Source: Idiomarina seosinensis (GTDB lineage: Bacteria; Pseudomonadota; Gammaproteobacteria; Enterobacterales; Alteromonadaceae). Taken from it: DNA of 64,000 nucleotides. Shown here in pieces: positions 3,695 through 63,915 of the stretch (its first letter is position 1; each line of letters starts with the position of its first letter). The notes below the pieces were generated by a model, which saw nothing but the letters and a program-made list of their open reading frames with translations, ran no database searches and was not told the DNA's origin. The stretch spans positions 1 through 64,000 of the forward strand of contig NZ_PIQF01000002.1 of assembly GCF_003987275.1 (NCBI RefSeq), read 5' to 3'. A program made the translations under genes and the position numbers.

Positions 3695-6600
3695 CTAAAA
3701 CCGAGTGCGAGCGTTGCGGAAGAGGCGCATCCACGGGCTGTCTTCGCTCCACTCGTCTGGGTGCCAGCTGTTGGCGACGGTGCGGAAGACGCGTTCCGGG
3801 TGCGGCATCATTGCGGTGAAGCGGCCGTCGTCGTTGGTGACTGCGGTGATACCGTTGGGGCTGCCGTTTGGATTGCATGGGTAGCTTTCGGTGACTTCGC
3901 CCCAGTTATTGATATAACGCAGTGCCACTTGTCCGGCATTTTCTAAGCGACTTTGCTGAGCCGGATGCTGAAACTCGGCGCGGCCTTCGCCGTGCGATAC
4001 GGCGATTGGCATGCGTGAGCCGGCCATGCCGCTAAAGAACGCAGAATTGGATTCTGGTACTTCGACCAGGCTAAAGCGCGCTTCAAACCGCTCGCTGCGG
4101 TTGGTCACAAACCGTGGCCAGTGTTCGGTGCCCGGAATTAACTCTTTTAACGCGGTGAGCATTTGGCAGCCGTTACAGACGCCAAGCGCCAGCGTGTCGT
4201 TGCGGTCGAAGAAGCGTTGGAACTGCTCTCGGGCGCGCTGATTAAACAGAATCGACTTAGCCCAGCCCTCACCGGCGCCTAATACGTCGCCGTAGGAGAA
4301 ACCACCACAGGCGGCCAGTGCCTGCATATCGTTCAGTTCAACACGGCCGGCAAGAATATCACTCATGTGCACGTCGATGGCTTCGAATCCTGCCCGATCC
4401 CAGGCAGCGGCCATCTCGTAATGAGAGTTGACGCCCTGCTCGCGCAGAATGGCGACTTTCGGTGCTACGCCTTTGCTGATGTAAGGCGCTGCCACGTCTT
4501 CGTTAAGATCGAAGGTTAAATCGGCTTGCAGCCCCGGGTTATCGGCGCGCTGTTTAAGTTTGAACTCTTCGTCGGCGGATACTGGGTTGTCACGCAAGCG
4601 CTGCATTTGATGGGTGGTTTCGGCCCATAATGTGCGGAAGTGAGTGCGTGAACCAGTAAGTACTTGCTTACCGTTTAAGCTAAAGCTTAACTCGTCTTTT
4701 TCTGTCGGCTGACCGATGTTATGGACGATATTGCCAAGTCCGGCTTCTTGATACGCGTTAGTCACATGCTCCAGCTGCTCGTCGGTTATTTGTAATACCG
4801 CGCCGAGTTCTTCGGAGAACAGACCAGCAAGTGCGTCACCACCAACTTTATCCAATGTAACCTCTGCCCCGCAATGACCGGCGAAGGCCATTTCGGCGAC
4901 GGTGGTGAATAAGCCGCCGTCGGAGCGATCGTGATAGGCGACAATGCGACCCTCGGCGATCAGCCGCTGGGTGGTTTCGAAGAACGCTTTAAATTGTGCG
5001 GCATCGTCCAGGTCTGGTGTTTCGGTACCGAACTGCTGGAACACCTGCGCCAGCGACGATGCGCCTAACCGGTTTTTACCGTTACCTAGATCCACCAGCA
5101 GTAGTTGCGTACTTCCCTTATCAAGGCGTAGCTGCGGGGTTAAGGTGTTGCGGATGTCATTGACCCGGGCAAACGAGGTGATCACCAGCGACATGGGAGC
5201 GGTTACTGCTTTGTCTTCGCCGTCATCCTGCCACTGAGTTTTCATCGACATTGAATCTTTGCCGACCGGAATGGTAATACCCAGCGCCGGGCAGAGCTCT
5301 TCGCCAACCGCTTTAACGGCCTCGTACAAGCCCGCGTCTTCACCCGGGTGACCGGCAGCAGCCATCCAGTTAGCCGACATTTTAATACGCTTAAGTTCGC
5401 CAACATCGGCGGCGGCCAGGTTAGTCAGTGCTTCACCTACGGCCATCCGCGCGGATGCGCCATAGTTTAATAATGCCAATGGCGTGCGTTCGCCCATGGC
5501 CATCGCTTCGCCGTGATAGGTGTCGTAGCTCTGTGCGGTAACTGCAACATCTGCCACCGGGATCTGCCACGGGCCAACCATCTGATCGCGATTGACCAAG
5601 CCGGTTACCGAACGGTCGCCAATGGTAATTAAGAAGGTTTTTTCGGCGATGCTCGGCAAGCGCATTAAACGCTCAGCCGCTTCCATAGCATCAACGCCGG
5701 CAAAATTGATTGCTTCGCCCTCAGCTTTTTTGCTCTGCACGTCACGATGCATTTTCGGTGGTTTACCCAGCAGCACATCCAACGGCATATCGATTGGCTG
5801 ATTACTGAACTTCGCATCGTTCAGCAATATCGTCAGCTCTTCTGTCGCCTCGCCGATAACCGCGTACTCGGCGCGTTCGCGGGCACAGATTTGTTCAAAA
5901 GTTTGCAGATTTTCCGGCGCAATCGCCATCACGTAACGTTCTTGCGATTCGTTACACCAGATTTCCAGCGGGGTCATGCCCGGTTCGTCGTTTGGAATGT
6001 CGCGCAGCTCAAAGCGACCACCACGGCCGCCATCACCGACTAGTTCCGGCATCGCGTTGGACAAACCACCGGCACCGACGTCGTGAATAAAGGCAATCGG
6101 ATTATCAGCACCAAGCTGCCAGCAGCGGTCGATAACTTCCTGACAGCGACGCTCCATTTCCGGGTTATCCCGCTGCACCGAGGCAAAATCCAGATCTTCA
6201 GCAGACTCACCGCTGGCCATGGATGAAGCGGCACTGCCGCCAAGACCAATGTTCATTGCCGGTCCGCCCAGTACCACAAGTTTGGCGCCGACCGGGATAT
6301 CACTTTTTTGCACATGGGCTTCGCGGATATTACCTAAGCCACCGGCAATCATAATGGGTTTGTGATAACCGCGCATTTCGCGGCCATTGTGACTGTTCAC
6401 GGTTTGTTCAAAGGTACGGAAATAACCGGTCAGGGCCGGACGACCAAACTCGTTGTTAAACGCAGCGCCACCTAAGGGTCCGTCGAGCATGATGTCGAGT
6501 GCGGTCACAATGCGTGATGGTTTGCCGTAGTTTTCTTCCCACGGCTGTTTGAAGCCCGGGATATTCAGGTTAGACACGCTGAAGCCAACAAGACCTGCTT

Positions 6601-7690
6601 TAGGCTTAGAACCAACACCGGTTGCACCTTCGTCACGAATTTCGCCGCCGGAGCCGGTTGCAGCCCCGGGATACGGGGAGATCGCCGTCGGATGGTTGTG
6701 CGTCTCGACTTTCATCAGGATGTGGATGGGTTCATGACTATAAGAGTAGGTGTAGGCTCCGCCTTCGGCTTCGCGGTTTGGGCCCTGCGGGCGGTCTGGG
6801 CTCGCGCTTTGCGCTTGCGGTTTGGGGGCTACGCCCGGTACAGGTGCGGGATAAAAACGGCCGGCGTCGAAGCCTTCCATAACCGCAGCGTTGTCTTTGT
6901 AGGCCGACAACACATAGTCCGGCGTGGTTTCGTAGGTGTTTTTGATCATCTTAAACAGCGATTTTGGCTGTTTTTCGCCGTCGATGGTCCAGTCGGCGTT
7001 AAAGATTTTATGCCGGCAATGCTCTGAGTTGGCCTGCGCAAACATGTAAAGCTCGATGTCGTTGGGGTTGCGATCCAGCTTGTTAAAATTCTCGACCAGA
7101 TAGTCAATTTCATCATCGGCTAGCGCCAGACCGAGTTTGATATTGGCGTCGGCCAGTGCGGCGCGCCCACCGGCGAGGATATCGACACTGGATAATGGCT
7201 TCGGCTGATGCTTTTCAAACAGCTTTTCCGCGTCGGCCTGGTGATACAACACGCTCTCGGTCATGCGGTCGTGCAATAGCGCGGCGGCTTGTTTTAATTC
7301 GTCACCGGATAAATCACCCTGCAGCGAGTAGGCAATACCACGCTCGATGCGGTGCACGTTGGTGAGATCGCAGTTATGAGCAATATCGGTGGCTTTCGAT
7401 GCCCACGGGCTGATAGTACCCAAGCGCGGGGTAACCAGGATGTAGCGTGCGTCCTCGGTGGAGGATTCAGGCGCATCGGATTTTGCGTCCCCAGCAGTTG
7501 AATCGGGCCCATAAGTCAGCAACTTCTCGAGCACCTGGCGTTGTTGGTCAGAAAGTGGCGAATGCAAATCGACAAAGTGCCGGTATTCGGCGCTGAGCCC
7601 TTTAACGGGTATCCCCGCTTGCTTGAGTTGCTCTAACTTTTTAGTCGTTTTAAAGGCTGATAAAGCCGGTGCGCCACGAAAAATTTCCAC
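3695..7690 (-). CDS. purL: Phosphoribosylformylglycinamidine synthase (FGAM synthase), large single-chain form
   Basis: Purine biosynthesis: converts FGAR plus glutamine and ATP to FGAM. The protein is collinear with E. coli PurL: N-terminal domain starting [13 protein letters not shown], two AIRS-type synthetase halves ([13 protein letters not shown] near residue 325; [11 protein letters not shown]), and a C-terminal class I glutaminase with Cys in GVCNGCQML and the His of PHPERVF. The frame opens at TTG 7705, but homology starts at GTG 7690, with GGAG nine bases upstream, so GTG 7690 is chosen (1,331 residues; E. coli 1,295). The excess is mainly about 27 residues at 283-312, between GRFY and HEPIHILMK, encoded by a GC-rich repeat copy (see 6757-6845). 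Confidence 0.97.
6757..6845 (-). repeat. GC-rich repeat copy inside the purL coding sequence
   Basis: This stretch of purL carries the same mini-hairpin units (GCCTTCGGC, GGCTTCGCGGTTTGGG, GGGCCCTGCGGGC) as the intergenic arrays. Bases 6757-6783 are the exact reverse complement of 8005-8031 (27 of 27) in the purL-rfaH intergenic array. In the purL frame it encodes a Pro/Gln/Arg-rich segment ([17 protein letters not shown], then PNREAEGGA). E. coli PurL has only about 12 residues between the flanking conserved blocks, against 39 here. Confidence 0.85.
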
Positions 7691-7767
7691 GTTCCTGATC
7701 TCCAACGCTCGGGGGGATTTTTGCGTGCGAAGTATACAGTAAAGCTCGTGCTAATGGAATATGGCTA

Positions 7768-8036
7768 GCTGCGCCTTCGGCGGGGGTAGGCTCGCTTCGC
7801 TCGCGGGATGGGACCTTCGGTCGGTTTGGGCGCTTCGCGCGGTGTGGGCTTGCCTTCGGCTTCGCGGTGTGGGTTCGCTTCGCTCACGTAAAACACGAGC
7901 GCAGCGAGTCTACCCCGGCCGCAGGCCCCACACCGCGCGAAGCGCCCAAACCGCGAAGCCGAAGGCGAGCCCAAACCGACCGGAAGTCCCATCCCGCGCG
8001 AAGCGCCCAAACCGCGAAGCCGAAGGCGGAGTCTAA
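7768..8036. repeat. GC-rich mini-hairpin array between rfaH and purL
   Basis: The 342-base gap between rfaH and purL is filled mostly by this array. The left half has GCCTTCGGC, GCTCGCTTCGCTCGCG and GCTTCGCG separated by GGTTTGGG or GGTGTGGG. The right half has the complementary units (CCCAAACCGCGAAGC), so the whole can fold as a long imperfect inverted repeat with its turn near 7890-7912. The array begins directly at the TAG stop of rfaH. Apparent reading frames through it are low-complexity Arg/Pro/Ala and are not called as genes. Confidence 0.85.
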
Positions 8037-8518
8037 ATAGAAAGGTCGTTGTAGCTAAAGTGGGCGGTGATTTCTTTTTGCATCCATTCGAGCATGACGA
8101 AGCAGCGGGATTCACCGTCCAGTTTTACAACTTTGGCCAGGAAGCCTTTGAACGGGCCGGTTTTTATTTCCACTTCATCGCCAATACTGGGGGCTTGATC
8201 TTCTTCGTGGTTATCCAAGTTCTTCAGTTGCTGAATAAAACTGTCGGGGATTTGCGGGATGTTGTCGCCAAAGCGCACGACCGAGGCTATGCCGTAAGTA
8301 CTGCGTAATTTATAAAACTGCTCGATTAGATTGTCGGGGTGCACAAATACATACCCCGGAAACATGGGTTCGACCACTTTTTTGCGACTGCCACGGCGGA
8401 TCTTTTCGACCACAAGTTGCGGGCAATAGCCCTCAAAGCCCTGGTTTTCAAGGTTTTGAACGGCTCTAACTTCCTGTTTGGGCTTGGTTTTTAGTACGTA
8501 CCAGGCATTAGCTTCCAT
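8033..8518 (-). CDS. rfaH: Transcription antitermination factor RfaH
   Basis: A 161-residue NusG-family specialised elongation factor. The N-terminal NGN domain begins with AWYVLKTKPKQEVRA and has the VEPMFPGYVFV core. The C-terminal KOW-type domain includes GDEVEIKTGPFKGFLAKVVKL. RfaH rather than NusG is favoured by the length, the PQLVVEKIRRGSRKKVVEPMFPGY region and the isolated location. Family members load at ops sites and suppress pausing in long envelope and polysaccharide operons. The start has GGAG about 11 bases upstream. The stop TAG abuts the GC-rich array. Confidence 0.9.
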   Translation of the reverse strand: MEANAWYVLKTKPKQEVRAVQNLENQGFEGYCPQLVVEKIRRGSRKKVVEPMFPGYVFVHPDNLIEQFYKLRSTYGIASVVRFGDNIPQIPDSFIQQLKNLDNHEEDQAPSIGDEVEIKTGPFKGFLAKVVKLDGESRCFVMLEWMQKEITAHFSYNDLSI

Positions 8519-8552
8519 TTAATGCGTTACTCCGTTTGGGTCCGAACTGTTA

Positions 8553-8574
8553 CTTGCGTCAAGGACGCAAGCTA
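8553..8574. repeat. TAG-linked palindrome between rfaH and the 44-residue gene
   Basis: CTTGCGTC (8553-8560), loop AAG, GACGCAAG (8564-8571), followed by CTAC. Read on the minus strand the palindrome directly follows the TAG stop of the small basic protein. Probable 3'-end hairpin (REP-like or weak terminator). Confidence 0.8.
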
Positions 8575-8706
8575 CTCGCACTTGGCGGTGCCGTCCTTTT
8601 GCACTATGCGGAACCATTTTTCGCGGCGCTCGATGATGCGTTGTTTGCGTTTACGGACGACTGCTCGACGGCGAGCGTCATTGGCGGTTTTACGGATTCG
8701 ACGCAT
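8572..8706 (-). CDS. Small basic protein, 44 residues, unknown
   Basis: A short frame in the rfaH-mltF gap: MRRIRKTANDARRRAVVRKR, then KQRIIERREKWFRIVQKDG and a TAKCE end. TAGGAAACCGCT precedes the ATG, giving an AGGA Shine-Dalgarno with 7-8 base spacing. Over a third of residues are Arg or Lys; no signal peptide or membrane segment is visible. The composition suggests nucleic-acid binding, perhaps ribosome-associated, but I recognise no family. The TAG stop at 8572 is the outer end of a palindromic repeat. It is flanked on both sides by palindromes, so it may be an independently transcribed unit. Confidence 0.6.
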   Translation of the reverse strand: MRRIRKTANDARRRAVVRKRKQRIIERREKWFRIVQKDGTAKCE

Positions 8707-8748
8707 AGCGGTTTCCTATCTAGTGTGCCTAGTGTCATTGTGCCGTAG

Positions 8749-8800
8749 CTTGCGTCTTTGACGCAAGTCGAAATTATTGTCGCGTCAGGGACGCGACCTA
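8749..8800. repeat. Double palindrome between the 44-residue gene and mltF
   Basis: Two 19-base palindromes 11 bases apart: CTTGCGTC-TTT-GACGCAAG (8749-8767) and GTCGCGTC-AGG-GACGCGAC (8779-8797). The CTA at 8798-8800 is the TAG stop of mltF. The same paired arrangement recurs at 22946-22998. Confidence 0.85.
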
Positions 8801-22907: not shown

Positions 22908-22945
22908 CGGATTCTCCATGGAGGTTTTTTAACCATAGTATGTAG

Positions 22946-22998
22946 CTTGCGTCTTTGACGCAAGTTATGTCGCAATGTCGCGTCAGGGACGCGAGCTA
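22946..22998. repeat. Double palindrome between the M20 gene and tadA
   Basis: CTTGCGTC-TTT-GACGCAAG (22946-22964) and GTCGCGTC-AGG-GACGCGAG (22977-22995). CTA at 22996-22998 is the TAG stop of tadA. Same two-part design as 8749-8800. Confidence 0.85.
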
Positions 22999-23445: not shown

Positions 23446-23463
23446 TTTTCTTTCCAGCCGTAA

Positions 23464-23485
23464 CTTGCGTCTAAGACGCAAGCTA
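23464..23485. repeat. TAG-linked palindrome between tadA and the antiporter gene
   Basis: CTTGCGTC-TAA-GACGCAAG (23464-23482) followed by CTA at 23483-23485, the TAG stop of the antiporter gene. Confidence 0.85.
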
Positions 23486-24871
23486 CAGCATTGTTCCGGT
23501 TATTGCGTAGCCGATGGTTGCGGCTACACCTGCTAACAGGGCATAGGGTAGCTGCGTGCGCACATGGTCAATATGCTCAGTACCACTGGCCATCGAGGCT
23601 ATGATCGTGGTGTCAGAAATCGGCGATGCATGATCGCCAAAAATACCGCCGGAAATCGCAGCGGCAATAAACGGTGCCGCCGGCAGCCCTAACGTCATAG
23701 CAATCGGAATTGCCAACGGCAGCATAATTGCAAAAGTTCCCCAACTGGAACCGATAGAAAAACCAGTGATTGCCGACAAGATAAAAATCAGCGGCAGTAA
23801 CATCCACAAGCTAACCGTACCATCCAGCGCTGCGGCTAAGAATTCACCGGTACCGAGATCGCGGGTAAGCCCACCCAGGGTAATCGAAAGCCATAATATA
23901 ATGGCCAGCGGCAGGATATTCCAGGCACCCAGCAAGGCACTTTTGAGCACCTTCACCAGTCCTGCTGAGCCGGTAACCAGTGTACCGACAATAGCGATAG
24001 CCAGCGCAATATAAATGGCTATAAACACGCTCAGCGTTCCGTTACCTTCAACCAGTACACCGTTACCGGTAATTAACAAGATCACCGGTACCATAACCAC
24101 CAACGAGCATAAGCTGAGCAGCACCACCGCCGTGCCTTTACCAAAGGAAACGTCCTCGTTAGGGCCATCGCTCCAGGTATTTTGGGAGACCCGATTCGGT
24201 TTCGCGTTTTGTTCAAACTTGCGCATTGGTCCGATATTCCAGTCGAACCAGGCGACAATCAGCGCCAGCAGTACCGAAAAAATGGCATAAAAGTTAAAGG
24301 CCAGCGACTGAATAAAGGTTAATAAAGGCTGCTCGACACCCTGGTTAGAGATTAAGGTTAAATTGAAAGCGCCCCAGGCGTTTAATGGAATTAAGATACA
24401 AATAGCCGCACAAGTCGAGTCGACAATGTAGGCCAGTTTTTCTCGCGAGATACCCAACCGATCATAAATCGGCCTTGAGGTAGTTCCGGAGATCATAATG
24501 GTGACGTTGGACTCGATAAACACGATAACGCCGAGTACCCAGGTCATTACCCGCGCTCGACGCTTGGATTCGACCCACTGTTTTTGCTCCAGCTTAAGCA
24601 CAAATTGCTTAAAGGTACCGCCTTTTTCTAAGACTCCAAATAAGGCACCGATGCCGAGCGTGAAAAACCACACCAACATATTGCTGGGATCGACCAGCGT
24701 ACTCCAGCTACTTAACCAGACGCCTTCTGCGATATTGGCAGAGGACGGTAAAAACAGCAGTACATTGGCTAAGATAATACCGCCAATCAGTGCCAGTAAC
24801 ACTTTGCGGGTAATTATCGCAAAAATAATGGCCAGTAACGACGGCAGTAAGCTGGTCCAGCTAAGTTCCAT
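23483..24871 (-). CDS. NhaC-type Na+/H+ antiporter family protein
   Basis: About 462 residues from ATG 24871 (MELSWTSLLPSLLAIIFAI), a polytopic inner-membrane protein with some eleven hydrophobic helices. The frame extends to 24931, but its first residues (MRRRRKLRYS) come from a palindromic repeat, so the internal Met is preferred even though no clear Shine-Dalgarno precedes it. Conserved elements: FIESNVTIMISGTTSRPIYDRLGIS, ending with GGIFGDHASPISDTTIIASM, typical of the NhaC/ion transporter superfamily. Likely exchanges Na+ or an organic ion with protons, fitting a marine or saline habitat. The exact substrate is unclear. Confidence 0.85.
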   Translation of the reverse strand: MELSWTSLLPSLLAIIFAIITRKVLLALIGGIILANVLLFLPSSANIAEGVWLSSWSTLVDPSNMLVWFFTLGIGALFGVLEKGGTFKQFVLKLEQKQWVESKRRARVMTWVLGVIVFIESNVTIMISGTTSRPIYDRLGISREKLAYIVDSTCAAICILIPLNAWGAFNLTLISNQGVEQPLLTFIQSLAFNFYAIFSVLLALIVAWFDWNIGPMRKFEQNAKPNRVSQNTWSDGPNEDVSFGKGTAVVLLSLCSLVVMVPVILLITGNGVLVEGNGTLSVFIAIYIALAIAIVGTLVTGSAGLVKVLKSALLGAWNILPLAIILWLSITLGGLTRDLGTGEFLAAALDGTVSLWMLLPLIFILSAITGFSIGSSWGTFAIMLPLAIPIAMTLGLPAAPFIAAAISGGIFGDHASPISDTTIIASMASGTEHIDHVRTQLPYALLAGVAATIGYAITGTML

Positions 24872-24913
24872 GGGGCTTGTGATGTTCGGAGTGATGTGCA
24901 AAGAGTACCGTAG

Positions 24914-25008
24914 CTTGCGTCTTCGACGCAAGTAATCTCCGCCGCAAGACCGATTGCTTGCGTCGGAGATATAAGGCAGAGCACTTGCGTCAGAGACGCA
25001 AGCTACTA
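24914..25008. repeat. Composite palindrome block between antiporter and TonB receptor genes
   Basis: Two 19-base palindromes, CTTGCGTC-TTC-GACGCAAG (24914-24932) and CTTGCGTC-AGA-GACGCAAG (24984-25002), with a related half unit near 24956-24966. CTA appears twice in tandem (25003-25008), giving the upstream receptor gene two successive TAG codons. Confidence 0.85.
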
Positions 25009-31953: not shown

Positions 31954-33138
31954 ATGGGCTTTATGCGTTCATTTCTTCTTAGTTTAGCGATTTTTTTAAT
32001 GACTTCTAACTCGAGCTTTGCATCCGATCGCATCCGGATCGCAACTTTTAACGTCAGTATGGATGCCAGTAACTATGTCGAGTACGAGCAACTACCGAAG
32101 GTAACCGAGTCGCCGGTACCGGCAAAGCTAGCCGACGGTCACCCGCAGATTGCCGGTATTGCCGAAATTCTGCAGCGCGTGCGTCCCGATATTGTACTGC
32201 TTAATGAATTTGATTATGTTGACGCCGAACGCGGCATTAACGTGTTTATCCGTGATTACCTGAGGCAGTCGCAAAACGGCCTCGACCCGATTAATTACCC
32301 GCATGTTTATATGGCACCGGTGAACACCGGATTGCCCTCGCCCTTCGATCTGAACCGTGACGGCGAAGCAACCGGCCGTGGTAACGATGCCTGGGGCTTT
32401 GGCTGGTATCCAGGCCAGTATGGCATGGTCATTTTGTCGCGTTACCCGTTACTGACCGAGCAAGCACGAACCTTCCAACACTTTTTGTGGAAGGATATGC
32501 CGGGGCACCACGTGCCAAAAGTACCTGACGAAAACGGCGAACTAACCGAACAGCACTGGTACTCCGACGAGGTCATGGGTCAGTTTCCGTTAAGCTCAAA
32601 ATCACATTGGGATGTACCGGTAAAAGTAGGTAACAAAGTCATTCATTTGTTAGCAGCCCATCCGACTCCGCCTGGGTTTGACGGCCCGGAAAACCGGAAT
32701 GGCATGAAGAACTACGACGAAATTCGGTTATTACGTGACTATCTGACACCAGGGCTGAACCACTATCTATACGACGATAAAGGCGTGCGTGGTGGTTTGC
32801 AGAAAGATGCATCTTTCGTGGTGCTGGGTGACTTAAATGCCGCGCCCGATTCAGGTGGTATCGACGGTGCTATTGAACAATTGCTAGAGCACCCTCGGGT
32901 TAATGACGTTAAACCGATGAGTAAAGGCGGCAAACGGCACTCTCCGGATCACGACAATTCAGAATACCATACCGCCGCATGGCGCAAGCGTGTCGACTAC
33001 GTGTTACCGTCTGACGACTTGATCGTAAAAGACGCCGGTGTCTTTTGGCCAATTAAAGGACAGCAGGGCTATCGGTTAATGGCTGAGCGTGGCGCCTCTT
33101 CGGACCACCGCCTGGTGTGGATTGATATTAGGTTGTAG
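31954..33138 (+). CDS. Secreted endonuclease/exonuclease/phosphatase-family protein
   Basis: 394 residues from ATG 31954, with AAGG about nine bases upstream; a longer frame from 31888 lacks one. A signal peptide (FMRSFLLSLAIFLMTSNSSFA) is followed by the EEP fold: IRIATFNVSMDA, then DIVLLNEFDYVD with the metal-binding Glu, VVLGDLNAAPDSGG and the closing SSDHRLVWIDI. Substrate may be nucleic acid, phosphoester or lipid. The combination of a large domain and the GNDAWGFGWYPGQYGMVILSR motif matches exported EEP proteins of marine bacteria, here seen from memory only. The TAG stop abuts a GC-rich repeat array. Confidence 0.88.
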   Translation: MGFMRSFLLSLAIFLMTSNSSFASDRIRIATFNVSMDASNYVEYEQLPKVTESPVPAKLADGHPQIAGIAEILQRVRPDIVLLNEFDYVDAERGINVFIRDYLRQSQNGLDPINYPHVYMAPVNTGLPSPFDLNRDGEATGRGNDAWGFGWYPGQYGMVILSRYPLLTEQARTFQHFLWKDMPGHHVPKVPDENGELTEQHWYSDEVMGQFPLSSKSHWDVPVKVGNKVIHLLAAHPTPPGFDGPENRNGMKNYDEIRLLRDYLTPGLNHYLYDDKGVRGGLQKDASFVVLGDLNAAPDSGGIDGAIEQLLEHPRVNDVKPMSKGGKRHSPDHDNSEYHTAAWRKRVDYVLPSDDLIVKDAGVFWPIKGQQGYRLMAERGASSDHRLVWIDIRL

Positions 33139-33300
33139 AGCCTTCGGCTGGGATGGGCTTCGCGGGTTGGGCCTGCGGCGGTGTGGGGCTTCGTCGAAGG
33201 CAGCAAGTTACGCCGCGAGCGAAGCGAGCCCAAACCGGCGCAGCCCCACACCACGCGCAGCGTCCAAACCAAGCGCATTGTCTAAACCACGAACAAAGTG
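33139..33300. repeat. GC-rich mini-hairpin array before xseA
   Basis: Units GCCTTCGGC, GGGCTTCGCGGGTTGGGCC and later GAGCGAAGCGAGCCCAAACC give an inverted-repeat layout filling the gap from the EEP gene stop to xseA. The xseA promoter and ribosome site must lie in or beyond it. Confidence 0.8.
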
Positions 33301-33307
33301 AGTACCC

Positions 33308-34621
33308 ATGGATATCTATTCGGTCTCTAAGCTTAACAACGATATACGGCTGCTGCTGGAGCAGGGCTTTGGCAATATCTGGCTGATGGGTGAGGTATCA
33401 AACTTTGCAGCGCCGGGCTCCGGGCACTGGTACTTTACCCTAAAAGACGACAAAGCCCAAATTCGTTGCGCCATGTTCCGTGGTAACAACCAACGCGCTA
33501 AAATTAGGCCCCAGAACGGTGTGCAGGTGATGGTTCGGGCGCGGGTAACAGTTTATGCGCCACGCGGCGACTACCAGCTAATTATCGAACATATCGAGGA
33601 TGCTGGTCAGGGACTCCTGCAGCAACAGTTTGAACAGTTAAAAGTAAAACTTGCCGCCGAAGGTCTATTTGCCAACGAGCGCAAGCGCCCGCTTCCCGAT
33701 GATATTCGCCGGGTTGGGGTTATCACCTCGCCGACCGGTGCCGCTATTCAGGATATTCTAGCGGTGATGAAACGTCGCGACCCGCAGGTCGAAGTGATTA
33801 TTTATCCCAGCGTTGTACAGGGTGAAGCGGCTATCCCCCAATTAAAGCAAATGCTGACAAATGCCTATCAGCGCAACGAAGTGGATGTGCTGCTGGTAAG
33901 CCGTGGCGGCGGTTCGATTGAAGACCTCTGGTGTTTTAACGACGAATCTGTTGCCCGTTTATTATTGGACGCGCCGATGCCGGTGATCAGCGCTGTCGGC
34001 CACGAGGTGGACTTTACCATTTGTGATTTCGTCGCCGACTTGCGTGCTCCCACACCATCCGCAGCGGCTGAACTGGTTACTAAAGATCGTGCGCAAACCC
34101 GGCAGCAGTTGCAGTCTCTGCAACAACGCCTGGTGTTAGCGCAACAACGCAGGCTGCAACAGTCCCGGCAGCAACACCAGTTTTTAGCGGCACGATTGCA
34201 ACAACAACATCCGCAAAGACAATTGCTACAACAATCGCAGCGTGCGGATGAATTACAAGCACGGGCAATGCGCGCGATCAGCAGCCAGCTGCAACGTGTA
34301 AGTCAGCGCCAAAGCTATGTGAAAAGCCGGCTGCAGGCACTGCATCCGCAAAAGGATATTGACCGTTACCAACAGCGCCTCGTTGATGCTCAGGAGCGGT
34401 TAAACCCAGCGGTGACGCGACTGTTAAAGCAGAAGTCAGAAAGGCAGCGGGCGTTAATGCAGGCACTTAACATCGTCAGTCCACTGAACACTTTAGAGCG
34501 CGGCTACGCCATCGTGCGCGACCAGCAAGGCAAGGTTATCCACGCCGCCGAAGAGGCCCCGTCCGGAACCGGGCTATCGATTAAACTGGCCAAAGGCGAG
34601 ATTAAAGCAAGAACGGTTTAG
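33308..34621 (+). CDS. xseA: Exodeoxyribonuclease VII large subunit
   Basis: 437 residues, close to E. coli XseA. N-terminal OB-fold (YSVSKLNNDIRLLLEQGF, then SGHWYFTLKDD), then the catalytic region with GVITSPTGAAIQDIL, RGGGSIEDLW and VGHEVDFTICDFVADLRAPTPSAAAE, followed by a long Gln-rich coiled coil and the closing LERGYAIV. It degrades single-stranded DNA with XseB, which is not in this window. The Shine-Dalgarno is weak because the upstream gap is a repeat array. Unlike E. coli, where xseA diverges from guaB, here it is convergent with guaA. Confidence 0.96.
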   Translation: MDIYSVSKLNNDIRLLLEQGFGNIWLMGEVSNFAAPGSGHWYFTLKDDKAQIRCAMFRGNNQRAKIRPQNGVQVMVRARVTVYAPRGDYQLIIEHIEDAGQGLLQQQFEQLKVKLAAEGLFANERKRPLPDDIRRVGVITSPTGAAIQDILAVMKRRDPQVEVIIYPSVVQGEAAIPQLKQMLTNAYQRNEVDVLLVSRGGGSIEDLWCFNDESVARLLLDAPMPVISAVGHEVDFTICDFVADLRAPTPSAAAELVTKDRAQTRQQLQSLQQRLVLAQQRRLQQSRQQHQFLAARLQQQHPQRQLLQQSQRADELQARAMRAISSQLQRVSQRQSYVKSRLQALHPQKDIDRYQQRLVDAQERLNPAVTRLLKQKSERQRALMQALNIVSPLNTLERGYAIVRDQQGKVIHAAEEAPSGTGLSIKLAKGEIKARTV

Positions 34622-34722
34622 GCTCGCTTTGCTCGCGGTTTATCATGAGCGCAGCGAATCCAAACCGCGAAGCCCGGAGGGCAAGCCTAAACCGCGAAGC
34701 CCAAACCGCCCGCAGGGCCTAC
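34620..34722. repeat. GC-rich array between convergent xseA and guaA
   Basis: Starts at the TAG stop of xseA and ends at the TAG stop of guaA. Contains GCTCGCTTTGCTCGCGG, then TTATCATGAGCGCAGCG, then GCGAAGCCCGGAGGGC. The middle part is nearly the same as at 40370-40412. Confidence 0.8.
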
Positions 34723-36296
34723 TCCCACTCAATAGTAGCTGGTGGTTTGCCGGAAATGTCGTAGGTGACGCGGGAGATGCCGCTGACTTCGTTAATGATC
34801 CGGTTCGACACTTTTTCTAATAACTCGTACGGCAGGTGCGCCCAGCGTGCGGTCATAAAGTCGATGGTTTCGACGGCACGCAGTGAAACAACCCAGTCAT
34901 ACTTACGCTGATCGCCCATAACACCGACCGAGCGCACTGGTAAGAACACCGCAAAAGCCTGACTGACTTTATTATACCAATCAGCTTTGTGCAGCTCTTC
35001 AATGAAGATCGCATCGGCACGACGCAGTAAGTCGCAGTACTCTTTCTTAATTTCGCCCAGCACACGCACGCCAAGACCTGGCCCCGGGAATGGATGGCGA
35101 TACAGCATGTTGTAGGGTAAACCCAGCTCAAGCCCAATTTTACGCACTTCGTCTTTGAACAACTCGCGCAGCGGTTCGACCAGACCAAGCTTCATGTCTT
35201 CCGGCAGACCACCGACATTGTGGTGCGATTTGATTACATGTGCTTTACCGGTTTTTGAACCTGCCGATTCAATCACATCTGGATAGATTGTGCCCTGAGC
35301 TAACCAGTCAACTTCGGTCAGCTTAGCGGCTTCTTCATCAAAAATATGAATGAAGGTGTTACCAATGATTTTACGCTTTTTCTCTGGATCGTTTTCGCCC
35401 TGTAAAGCATCTAAGAAGCGATCTTCGGCGCGAATCGGTAGGATGTTCAGACCATAGTGATCACCGAACATTTCCATCACCTGCTCGGCTTCGTTTAGGC
35501 GTAATAAGCCATTGTCGACGAAAATACAAGTCAGCTGCTCGCCGATAGCGCGATGCAGTAACATGGCGGTCACTGACGAATCGACCCCGCCAGACAAGCC
35601 TAAGATAACTTTATCGCTACCAACTTGCTCACGAATGCGCTCTATTGCGTCATCGATAATTTTTGCCGGAGTCCATTGCTTTTCACAACCACAAATATTA
35701 CTTACAAAGTGTTCGAGCATGCGCATGCCCTGGCGCGTGTGAGTCACTTCCGGGTGAAACTGAACACCGTAAAACTGACGACGCTCGTCAGCCATTGCCG
35801 CGTAAGGGCAATAGGAGGTCTTAGCGACCGTGTGGAAACCCTCGGGGATAGTCTCTACTTTATCACCGTGACTCATCCATACATCAAGCAATGGAGCACC
35901 ATCGTCACTGACTGCGTCTTCAATAGCTTCGAATAATGGGCTGCTCTCGACCAATTCGATTTGCGCATAGCCAAATTCACGCTCTAACGAGCATTGCACT
36001 GAACCACCTAGCTGGTGAGCCATGGTTTGCATGCCATAGCACACACCAAATACCGGTACGCCGGCTTCAAACACATAATCCGGCGCACGCGGCGAGTTCT
36101 CTTCAGCGACACTTTCCGGCCCACCTGAGAGGATAATCCCCTTCGGTGCAAAGTCCTTAATATCTTGTTCATCAACGTCCCAGGCCCAGAGTTCGCAATA
36201 CACGCCGATTTCGCGGATACGGCGGGCAATTAACTGGGTGTACTGCGACCCGAAGTCTAAAATAAGGATTCGGTGGTCGTGAATATCTCTAGTCAT
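34719..36296 (-). CDS. guaA: GMP synthase (glutamine-hydrolysing)
   Basis: Final step from XMP to GMP. 525 residues, the normal length. An N-terminal class I glutaminase domain has catalytic Cys in [10 protein letters not shown] and the His of FHPEVTHT. The ATP pyrophosphatase domain has the PP-loop [13 protein letters not shown], and the dimerisation domain has [11 protein letters not shown] and ends PPATIEWE. It lies 33 bases downstream of guaB in the usual guaBA operon and shares its promoter. The TAG stop borders the GC-rich array. Confidence 0.98.
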
Positions 36297-37865: not shown

Positions 37866-38020
37866 CTTTTTTAGGCTCGCTGCGCTCGCGGTATGGGGGC
37901 TTCGCCCGCTTTAGCGAACGGCCTTCGGCGTTCGGGTTTGGAGCTTCGCTGGTCTGGGGGCTAAACCACGCGTAGCGTCTACACCGGCAATGCCCAAAAC
38001 CGTGAGCGTAGCGAACCCAT
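37866..38020. repeat. GC-rich array between the divergent guaB and metX genes
   Basis: Left units GGCTCGCTGCGCTCGCGG and GGGGCTTCGCCCGC, right units ACCACGCGTAGCG and GTGAGCGTAGCGAACCC. This array lies between two 5' ends, unlike most others, and separates the guaB promoter from the metX operator. Confidence 0.75.
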
Positions 38021-40284: not shown

Positions 40285-40473
40285 AGGGATTGGGCTCCCG
40301 TTGGTCGCGGTTTAGGCTCTCTGCGCTCGCGGTATGGGTGCTGCGCACGGTCTGGGATCGCGTTGCTCGCGATTTATCATGAGCGTAGCGAATCCATCCC
40401 GCGAAGCCCGGAGGGCAATCCCACTCCGCGAACGCTAGTGAGTCTAAACCGCGACCAACGGGAGCCCAAACCC
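40285..40473. repeat. GC-rich array between convergent metY and mscS
   Basis: From the metY stop to the mscS stop. Left units GTTGGTCGCGGTTTAGGC and GCTCTCTGCGCTCGCGG, a TTTATCATGAGCGTAGCG turn, right units CGCGAAGCCCGGAGGGC and CGGGAGCCCAAACC. The outer ends (GGGCTCCCGTTGGTCGCGG, 40290-40310, and its complement at 40452-40471) pair to make a long stem. Confidence 0.82.
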
Positions 40474-40475
40474 TG

Positions 40476-53070: not shown

Positions 53071-53906
53071 CACAACAGGCAATCGAATACCCGACCGATC
53101 AATTGGTTCGCTATACCTTTGCTGACCAGGATGTGCGCGGCGAATTAGTGCAGTTGACCAGTAGTTACCAAAGTTTAATTCGCGGCCACCAATACCCACC
53201 GTTAGTGCAACAGGCGTTGGGTGAAATGATGGCGGCAGTATCACTGTTAACGGCAACGCTAAAGTTCGAAGGGCATATTGCGGTTCAGCTGCAGGGCGAC
53301 GGCCCATTAAACTTCATTGCTGTTAATGGTAATCATCAGCAGCAATTGCGTGGCATTGCCCGGATTCGGGACGAGATTAAATCGACCAATATTCGTGACA
53401 TGATTGGCAAAGGCCAATTAGTTATCACGCTGGAGCCGGAACAGGGTGAACGTTACCAGGGCGTAACCAGTGCCGATGCCGATTCTATTGCAGAGATGTT
53501 AGAAAACTATTTTATGCAGTCCGAACAACTTGCCACCAAGATTTGGCTTAACGCTGATGGTGAACATGCCGCTGGCATGCTATTGCAGCGTATGCCTGCC
53601 TCTGGTAAAGATATGACCGGCTTTGAGCATTTAACGACGCTAACAGAAACTATCACCGAGCAGGAACTATATACCTTGCCGGCAGAACAACTGCTACATC
53701 GTTTATACCATGAAGAGACCGTTCATATTTATCCACCACAGTCAGTCTCGTTTGTCTGCGGCTGTTCCCGTGAACGCACCCTTGAAGCATTAGCCAGCGT
53801 GCCGGTGGAGCAAATAAAAGAAATTTTAGAACAAGATGGGGAAATTGTTATGACCTGCGATTACTGTCTGACAGAGTATCGGTTTAGCCAAGAAGATTTT
53901 GGTTAA
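53067..53906 (+). CDS. hslO: Redox-regulated chaperone Hsp33
   Basis: 279 residues. The C-terminal zinc-binding redox switch CGCSRERT ... CDYC is intact, as are the VRYTFADQDVRGELVQL start and EMMAAVSLLTATLKFEG. Holdase chaperone activated by oxidation. Overlap with hslR suggests co-translation. The TAA stop is followed at once by a palindrome. Confidence 0.97.
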   Translation: MTQQAIEYPTDQLVRYTFADQDVRGELVQLTSSYQSLIRGHQYPPLVQQALGEMMAAVSLLTATLKFEGHIAVQLQGDGPLNFIAVNGNHQQQLRGIARIRDEIKSTNIRDMIGKGQLVITLEPEQGERYQGVTSADADSIAEMLENYFMQSEQLATKIWLNADGEHAAGMLLQRMPASGKDMTGFEHLTTLTETITEQELYTLPAEQLLHRLYHEETVHIYPPQSVSFVCGCSRERTLEALASVPVEQIKEILEQDGEIVMTCDYCLTEYRFSQEDFG

Positions 53907-53925
53907 CGTGCGTCAAAGACGCACG
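53907..53925. terminator. Palindrome between convergent hslO and der
   Basis: CGTGCGTC-AAA-GACGCACG between the two TAA stops. It is a variant of the TAG-linked palindrome and, placed between two convergent genes, could act as a bidirectional terminator, although no long T-run follows. Confidence 0.6.
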
Positions 53926-53932
53926 CTACCGA

Positions 53933-62539: not shown

Positions 62540-62758
62540 AAATCCTGTTGTGGGCCTGCGGCGGTGTAGACTCACGCTTTGCGCTTGCGGTATGGGCTCC
62601 GGCTATGCCGTCGCGGCGTGGCGTGCCGCCTTTCGGCGCACGGGTTTAGGGGCTTCGCCCGTCAATAATTAAACACGAGCGTAGCGAGTCTATACCCGCG
62701 AAGCGCCACACCGCGAGGGCGCAGCCGGAGCCCACCCCGCGAACGAAGCGGGCCTATC
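62540..62758. repeat. GC-rich array between rlmN and ndk
   Basis: About 220 bases holding left units GGGCCTGCGGCGGTGTAGAC, GCTTTGCGCTTGCGG, GGGGCTTCGCCCG and a turn with TAATTAAACACGAGCGTAGCG, then right units CGCGAAGCGCCACACCGCG and GCGAACGAAGCGGGCC. It ends at the ndk TAA stop and leaves no room for an rlmN promoter outside it. Confidence 0.8.
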
Positions 62759-63362: not shown

Positions 63363-63890
63363 ATGGCCCAGGCAACATTAGGTGGCGGTTGTTTTTGGTG
63401 TATAGAATCAGCCTTTCTACAGGTTAAAGGCATTGAGAAAGTTCAGTCGGGATATACCGGTGGAGATACTGAGAACCCAACTTACAAACTGGTATGTACC
63501 GGCACCACCGGACATGCAGAAGTCGCTCAGCTAACCTATAACCCGGAGGTAATTTCTTACCGCCAAATCTTAGAAATTTTCTTTACCCTGCATGATCCGA
63601 CACAGCTGAATCGACAAGGTAATGATGTTGGTACTCAGTACCGCAGCTCGATTTTTTACCACGACGACGAACAAAAGCATGAGGCTGAGCAAGTTATAAA
63701 AGAACTTGAAGAAGACGATGCGTTCGCTGATCCGATCGTGACAGAAGTATCAACGTTAGAAACGTTTTGGGCAGCTGAGGACTATCACGAAAACTATTTT
63801 AATCGTAATCCTGAAAACCCCTACTGTCAGGCGGTTATATCACCGAAGCTGGCGAAGTTTCGGAAAACGTTTTCCAGTTTGCTGAAATAG
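63363..63890 (+). CDS. msrA: Peptide methionine (S)-S-oxide reductase
   Basis: 175 residues. Reduces methionine-S-sulfoxide. Active-site GGGCFWCIESAF, GYTGGDTENPTYKLVCTGTTGHAE and YHENYFNRNPENPYC; the Cys in NPYCQ is the likely resolving residue. AAGGAG lies nine bases before the ATG. The stop is TAG, followed at once by a palindrome. Confidence 0.97.
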   Translation: MAQATLGGGCFWCIESAFLQVKGIEKVQSGYTGGDTENPTYKLVCTGTTGHAEVAQLTYNPEVISYRQILEIFFTLHDPTQLNRQGNDVGTQYRSSIFYHDDEQKHEAEQVIKELEEDDAFADPIVTEVSTLETFWAAEDYHENYFNRNPENPYCQAVISPKLAKFRKTFSSLLK

Positions 63891-63909
63891 CTTGCGTCGC
63901 TGACGCAAG
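63888..63909. repeat. TAG-linked palindrome after msrA
   Basis: TAG stop (63888-63890), then CTTGCGTC-GCT-GACGCAAG (63891-63909). Confidence 0.85.
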
Positions 63910-63915
63910 TCAACA

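Follow-up and report, generated by a model that had tools for sequence, protein, structure and literature searches.

An in-frame, lineage-specific repeat insertion is present in an essential enzyme of Idiomarina seosinensis, the FGAM synthase PurL. The insert comprises four units of a mini-hairpin array family that is dispersed between the genes of the same genome. It occurs in three sister species of the genus and most simply reflects, as judged from the compared sequences, a single insertion before these species parted. Similar arrays flank small genes of the 23S rRNA-intervening sequence protein family (S23) in this genus.

The insert within PurL

The DNA analysed here (the window) is a stretch of 64,000 nt, positions C2:1-64000 of the 2.69 Mb, six-contig genome of I. 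seosinensis (G000). The gene purL occupies 3695-7705 on the minus strand as an open reading frame of 1336 residues, which contains the Pfam GATase_5 and FGAR-AT domains and matches Salmonella PurL (1t3t). Alignment to 1t3t and comparison with congeners locate the insert region at 6752-6847 on the minus strand, corresponding to PurL residues 287-318. These 32 residues lie opposite the five residues 282-286 of the Salmonella protein, a difference of 27. The first-pass annotation, made from the sequence alone, had set 39 residues against 12 in E. coli PurL, which is the same 27-residue excess as counted here on the Salmonella protein rather than on that of E. coli. The net size of the insert is 54-81 nt across the three species, and the encoded loop is hydrophilic and rich in proline, alanine and serine. 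In an AlphaFold model of PurL residues 1-560, which is poor (mean pLDDT 52.6), residues 289-317 form a coil between two strands. That the segment may be tolerated as a surface loop is suggested by the variation of loop length and by this poor model.

The plus strand of 6749-6844 reads linker-L-linker-S-linker-L-linker-S-linker, each linker being GGTNTRGG with at most one mismatch, and all four units share a single orientation (one-sided). The first L-type hairpin unit, CTCCGCCTTCGGCTTCGC (6757-6774, plus strand), lies at the end of the insert that matches 8005-8031. It is followed by the S-type unit CCCTGCGGGC (6783-6792, plus strand), which has a GCA loop on the coding strand and whose associated six residues, PDRPQG, are missing in the two other insert-bearing species, G003 and G005. 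The second L-type unit (6801-6818, plus strand), reading GCAAGCGCAAAGCGCGAG on the coding strand, is identical in G000, G003 and G005, and its loop is AAA, not GNA. The fourth unit is the S-type unit GGCTACGCCC (6827-6836, plus strand), with a GTA loop on the coding strand. The L hairpin conserved in the three species recurs only once elsewhere in the loci examined when up to two mismatches are allowed, with one mismatch at window position 62571.

As noted in the first-pass annotation and checked on the sequence, the reverse complement of bases 6757-6783 recurs without a mismatch as the 27 bases 8005-8031, in the purL-rfaH intergenic array. Among 300 random 102-base pieces of the window, the longest inverted match to the rest of the window is 10-15 bases in 298 cases and 18 and 26 bases in the remaining two. 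The 27 bases of the insert exceed all of them, and the reservation that such a match might be frequent by chance is not borne out. In addition, a 22-base core with up to two mismatches has eight matches in the 2.69 Mb genome (one in purL, three in the purL-rfaH array and four in an array at C1:15 kb), of which only the purL match is coding, and the reversed control pattern has none. These two controls, together with the two-linker pattern counts given below, reject a chance or low-complexity match. As isolated DNA, the insert (106 nt) folds no more stably than shuffled versions of itself (z +0.96). The purL-rfaH array (281 nt) does surpass its shuffled versions in stability (z -11), and its best structure pairs both arms together.

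Distribution and history of the insert

PurL is matched in 75 of the 78 genomes searched, the own genome included. Within the genus, the insert is found in three of 19 genomes, G000, G003 and G005, with 27, 19 and 18 extra residues, respectively. The other 16 congeners lack it, so that an insert common to all relatives is rejected. Letter-by-letter reading of the loops covered 110 PurL loci, 30 from genomes and 80 named, with some organisms in both sets. The insert is absent from 107 of these loci, three of which are four residues longer than most; its absence in the remaining genomes is judged from the split alignment. The insert-bearing genomes are the same three of 19 that bear the arrays. 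The first-pass annotation had named array-free relatives with the segment as evidence against its own reading; since insert genomes and array genomes coincide, this test does not refute it.

The peptide PKPQAQSAS is common to all three inserts, while that of G000 has an additional 18-nt unit (PDRPQG) and a last unit differing from that of G003 and G005. Given the three-species-only distribution and the common PKPQAQSAS, these sequences are most simply explained by one insertion before the three species parted, with units apparently gained or lost in frame since. Neither an insertion boundary nor a target duplication nor any recent movement was found. The insert had been expected to offer a direct handle on how the repeat moves; this handle is weaker than hoped, as the insert already dates from the ancestor of the three species and neither a fresh insertion nor a definable target duplication was seen.

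The GGTNTRGG mini-hairpin array family

The unit of the family consists of the linker GGTNTRGG and a tiny hairpin. A pattern of two such linkers 8-24 bases apart, searched in the 78 genomes, is matched 15 times in G000, 54 times in G003 and 28 times in G005. The other 75 genomes have 0-3 matches each, and the reversed control has 0-6 per genome. A wider draw of 369 genomes of the class, which includes the own genome (15 matches) and leaves G003 and G005 aside, has nine matches in the next highest genome, G426. These nine are a 12-base repeat without hairpins, and G426 was rejected as a further carrier. In G003, 47 of the 51 listed matches (54 in all) lie within C1:624-1001 kb.

The hairpins were characterized in 114 spacers between two perfect linkers, taken from array stretches with no hairpin condition and including copies that are not independent of each other. 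Seventy of them are 8 or 10 bases long and have stems of 3-4 bp, in which nearly all pairs are complementary and both G-C and C-G types occur. On the CCYANACC strand, the loop of these short spacers is GNA in 60 of 70 and purine-N-A in 67 of 70, with a C-G closing pair in 67 of 70; the GNA loop is also found in 14 of the 18 distinct 10-base spacers. The longer spacers mostly read GC-GA-stem-loop-stem-GA-G, which we take to be a tandem G-A mismatch design. In the sequence stretches around array matches, all 33 two-sided arrays have plus units followed by minus units (convergent) and none has the other order, the remaining 19 being of single orientation. A looser, hairpin-only criterion gives 33 convergent clusters among 37 mixed ones and mixed order in four.

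Six intergenic arrays, none assigned to a strand, are located in the window. The two-sided purL-rfaH array (7765-8031) has plus units followed by minus units. The others are found at 33130-33300, upstream of a gene named by eye as xseA-like; at 34610-34725; at 37868-38015; at 40285-40475, with outer arms of 38 nt; and at 62547-62650, directly upstream of an rlmN-like gene (also named by eye) and containing the conserved L unit of purL with one mismatch. As read by eye, G005 has an array at the matching place for all six and G003 for five of them. The spread of the arrays may be old, because they occupy the same sites in G000, G003 and G005. Tandem periods of 40 and 58 occur within the intergenic arrays.

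Copies of another array unit, of the type found in the congener G018, occur singly at G000:C1:137306 (two mismatches) and G005:C3:186707 (no mismatch), and several array types therefore coexist in the genus. A plasmid or phage origin of the purL-rfaH array was rejected, with no match in 72,556 plasmid or 50,697 phage records (E 1e-5). A known RNA family was likewise rejected, as the Rfam matches of 6500-8700 are far below the gathering scores (MIR918, 46 of 268 bits; MIR3454, 33.6 of 142); these sub-threshold matches fall on the array at 7814-7958 and are taken as a likeness to long hairpins. Clustering at the replication terminus was also dismissed, since the dif-like sites of the single-contig congeners G002 and G004 are 0.79 and 0.75 Mb away from purL. 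Repeats of about 279 nt that are 74-78% alike stand in tandem at the start of the contig (window 1287-2163) and probably belong to a large repeat protein.

A second coding case is provided by a CheW-domain protein (PF01584), for which 18 of the 19 congener loci were read. Its linker is acidic or EP-rich and has no array in 16 of them, the own genome included. In G003 the linker is an in-frame array with a period of 39 nt, and in G005 one with a period of 60 nt; both periods are multiples of three, whereas those of the intergenic arrays include 40 and 58. The same position, a disordered linker, is filled with units that differ in sequence between two sister species. The peptides are PKP/PTP repeats, unlike those of the purL insert. 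Apart from purL and this gene, long open frames over arrays were set aside by eye as chance frames or sequence upstream of starts.

S23 genes within hairpin arrays

A small gene with a PF05635 (23S rRNA-intervening sequence protein) domain lies within array stretches of G000 and G003. The nearest solved structure to S23 by sequence is XCC0516 (2gsc), and we take this S23/IVP four-helix-bundle gene to be Avd-like. PF05635 is found above cut-off in four of the 19 congeners, with two copies in G000, three in G003 and one each in G005 and G018, and once below cut-off in G010. It is thus present in all three array genomes against one of the 16 other congeners; S23 and arrays are not independent observations here, because the three array species are sisters, and the association is weak as statistics.

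Five of the seven S23 copies in the genus have mini-hairpin arrays on both sides (G000:C1:14744, G003:C1:892759, G003:C1:643123, G005:C2:86604 and G018:C9:44827). The gene lies mid-way in one convergent array in G005 and at G003:643123, and between two arrays in the other three. The copy at G003:C1:914988 has an array on one side and a partial Y1 transposase match 1.4 kb beyond the other, and that at G000:C1:150295 is accompanied by a plain 35-base inverted repeat. The GGTNTRGG family itself is found at G000:C1:14744 and G003:C1:892759, which are situated in matching stretches, while the other array-flanked copies have other linkers with the same GNA loops. G005 has 28 array matches, yet its sole S23 copy carries arrays with a different linker, and G018 has S23 with arrays but without the GGTNTRGG family. 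The copy at G003:C1:892759 has its end roughly 2.8 kb away from the stop codon of purL in that genome. It shares 80 of 114 residues with that at G000:C1:14744, with 42 further codons silently different, and the S23 gene therefore looks maintained.

Outside the genus, S23 was studied in 30 loci, the best of 77 matching genomes. Flanking inverted repeats score above 17 in 21 of these 30 best loci, against none of 22 windows 900 bases away (p 4e-9); among 301 other gene pairs, 17 marks the 99th percentile and two pairs score above 26. At the stricter threshold of 26, the repeats are retained in nine of the same 30. None of nine short 23S motifs was found in these 30 best-of-77 loci. GNA hairpins are not enriched at outside-genus S23 loci, where their density is 0.174 per kb and that of three controls 0.149, 0.302 and 0.33, and mini-hairpin arrays as a general S23 rule are unsupported there. 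S23 genes are thus often located in stem-loops, and arms built as mini-hairpin arrays are seen in this genus only.

We favour the reading that the purL insert is a tolerated fragment of this lineage-specific family, and that the arrays are related to S23 stem-loop elements but carry no gene and spread in the form of hairpin DNA. As a whole we regard it as plausible, though short of probable.

Y1 transposase genes and GTAG hairpins

Alternatively, the arrays could belong to the REP/BIME type, in which short palindromes follow a tetranucleotide and are spread by a RAYT (TnpA-REP); the purL insert would then be an intragenic REP. PMC3733652 and PMC8266576 describe REP/BIME elements as a tetranucleotide with a small hairpin, in opposite orientations and with intragenic copies in several species. 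The arrays share the tetranucleotide-like linker, the small hairpin, the opposite orientations and the intragenic copies. The unit, NTRG followed by a hairpin, is similar to a hairpin behind GTAG; a unit GTAGC-TTGC-TGCCTTCGGC-GCAAG occurs in some of the G003 and G005 arrays, and Y1 transposase genes are present in all three array genomes. However, they are also present in eight of the 16 array-free congeners, and the distribution of the arrays does not follow them. Among nine Y1 loci examined, seven have their own GTAG hairpins, unlike the array units, and none has a GGTNTRGG array. The linker is mostly not GTAG, which falls within GGTNTRGG only where N is G and R is A, and the hairpin differs from a REP in its 3-4 bp stem and its GNA loop on one strand. 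We therefore consider a RAYT-spread family unlikely.

The S23/array and Y1/GTAG systems replace one another at two sites. At one matching site, S23 with arrays is present in G000 (L275 14579-15330) and in G003, while G005 has a Y1 transposase gene (L100 8940-9784). At an intergenic site, the own genome has a GTAG REP pair (window 24875-25006, with the hairpin pair at 24905-25006), against S23 with hairpin arrays in G003 (L277 12092-14603) and G005 (L278 6169-7305).

GTAG-tagged REP-like hairpins, separate from the mini-hairpin arrays, are located in the window at 8552-8575, 8745-8800, 22942-22998, 23463-23490, 24905-25006, 53906-53929 and 63882-63910. They are of two types, GTAGCTTGCGTC...GACGCAAG and GTAGGTCGCGTC...GACGCGAC, and several form opposite pairs. 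The latter type resembles the hairpins around a Y1 gene of G005.

Possible growth in place and codon conservation

The arrays could also do without a dedicated protein and grow in place by slippage, quasi-palindrome template switching and gene conversion, the purL insert having grown from, or been copied into, a chance hairpin. The tandem periods of the arrays, stems that vary yet remain complementary, array sites identical in the three species and the gain and loss of units in purL all agree with such growth. It accounts less well for the many separate sites with the same linker in a family limited to three of 78 genomes, which together mean that dispersal was needed at some time, and it leaves the S23 association unexplained. 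Growth in place is thus, in our estimation, distinctly unlikely.

Codon usage was compared across G000, G003 and G005, in which 421 of 1139 conserved PurL residues use an identical codon. With Met and Trp excluded, there are 428 windows made up of seven conserved residues, and PQAQSAS in the insert is the sole one with all codons identical in the three species; this is also the longest identical-codon run in purL and is located in the insert hairpin. The identity is consistent both with retention of the hairpin itself, as DNA or RNA, and with copy-correction between the hairpin arms. Although this unique window could speak for a segment retained as a useful peptide or RNA/DNA hairpin (in regulation, folding or partner binding), the rest of the loop differs in length and sequence among the three species and the CheW-domain case encodes unrelated peptides, which makes such retention highly improbable.

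Discussion

The insert is of a known kind, that of in-frame palindromic inserts; intragenic REPs and S23 genes in intervening-sequence (IVS) stem-loops are known as well. Rickettsia palindromic elements are described in PMC10969869 as dispersed palindromic repeats that lie in frame in unrelated genes and are tolerated. The family studied here shares with them a palindromic repeat that occurs in intergenic DNA as well as in frame inside genes. It differs in having units of 16-26 nt, two host genes and no conserved peptide, against about 150 bp, a conserved peptide and many genic copies. The first-pass annotation had likened the insert to these elements; it is of the same kind and not a member. 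Overall, the in-frame, lineage-specific repeat insertion in an essential enzyme proposed there stands, and the surface loop, the likeness to Rickettsia palindromic elements and the handle on movement are less well supported or have to be qualified.

PMC4990558 describes the IVS of 23S rRNA as an S23 open reading frame within inverted repeats that form a stem-loop, and calls it selfish. Among the S23-family genes of this genus, five of seven copies have such a layout with arrays on both sides and one with a plain inverted repeat. In contrast to the IVS, which sits in rRNA and is cut out by RNase III, the genus loci are not in rRNA, the window arrays being intergenic and the insert in purL; their arms are mini-hairpin arrays, and the purL insert and most dispersed arrays carry no gene. 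The hairpin unit, in turn, corresponds to the DNA mini-hairpin d(GCGAAGC), which is called 'extraordinarily stable' (Tm 78 C) in PMC4686876 and has a GNA loop on a G-C rich stem of at least two pairs. By sequence, the C(GNA)G form with at least two G-C pairs is found here as well, as a genomic array unit rather than an isolated motif, although the loop of the conserved L unit in purL is AAA. Neither the array family nor its S23 link is described in the literature searched on Idiomarina palindromes, genomic GNA mini-hairpins and S23/IVP inverted repeats, a search of titles and abstract starts that included few subscription papers.

If the arrays are gene-less relatives of S23 elements, PurL would have received a one-sided fragment of a convergent mini-hairpin array at one of its turns, in a single event that predates the split of the three species. 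The frame and orientation of entry would have given the hydrophilic, proline/alanine/serine-rich loop, with whole units gained or lost later. On one of its strands, each unit can fold into a mini-hairpin of the C(GNA)G type. Because the units would form on one strand and the halves of two-sided arrays run oppositely, the family would most likely act as single-stranded hairpin DNA in replication or recombination. The dispersed arrays would then be related to stem-loop elements bearing the S23/23S-IVP four-helix-bundle gene, whose protein may help, or may once have helped, the hairpins to spread. TnpA-REP is thought to help REPs spread in a like manner. The folding of the insert alone, no better than that of its shuffles, and the AAA loop of the conserved purL hairpin argue against this model, as do the missing insertion boundary and recent movement, the lack of GNA enrichment at S23 loci outside the genus, the S23 and array types of G005 and G018, and the four clusters of mixed order.

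Our analysis provides a clean, dated instance of repeat-born sequence in an essential enzyme, with 16 congeners empty, three filled and unit turnover visible. It also establishes a family of repeats in which the unit corresponds to an ultra-stable hairpin already described for DNA, and gives a lead on the role of orphan S23/IVP genes, because such genes tend to sit inside inverted repeats or hairpin arrays. A tentative extension, which we hold to be unlikely as it stands, is a minimal mobile element in which the S23/IVP gene would propagate convergent C(GNA)G arrays. Gene-less arrays would be its non-autonomous form and the IVSs of 23S rRNA an outlying one, and in-frame entry into essential genes would supply loops.
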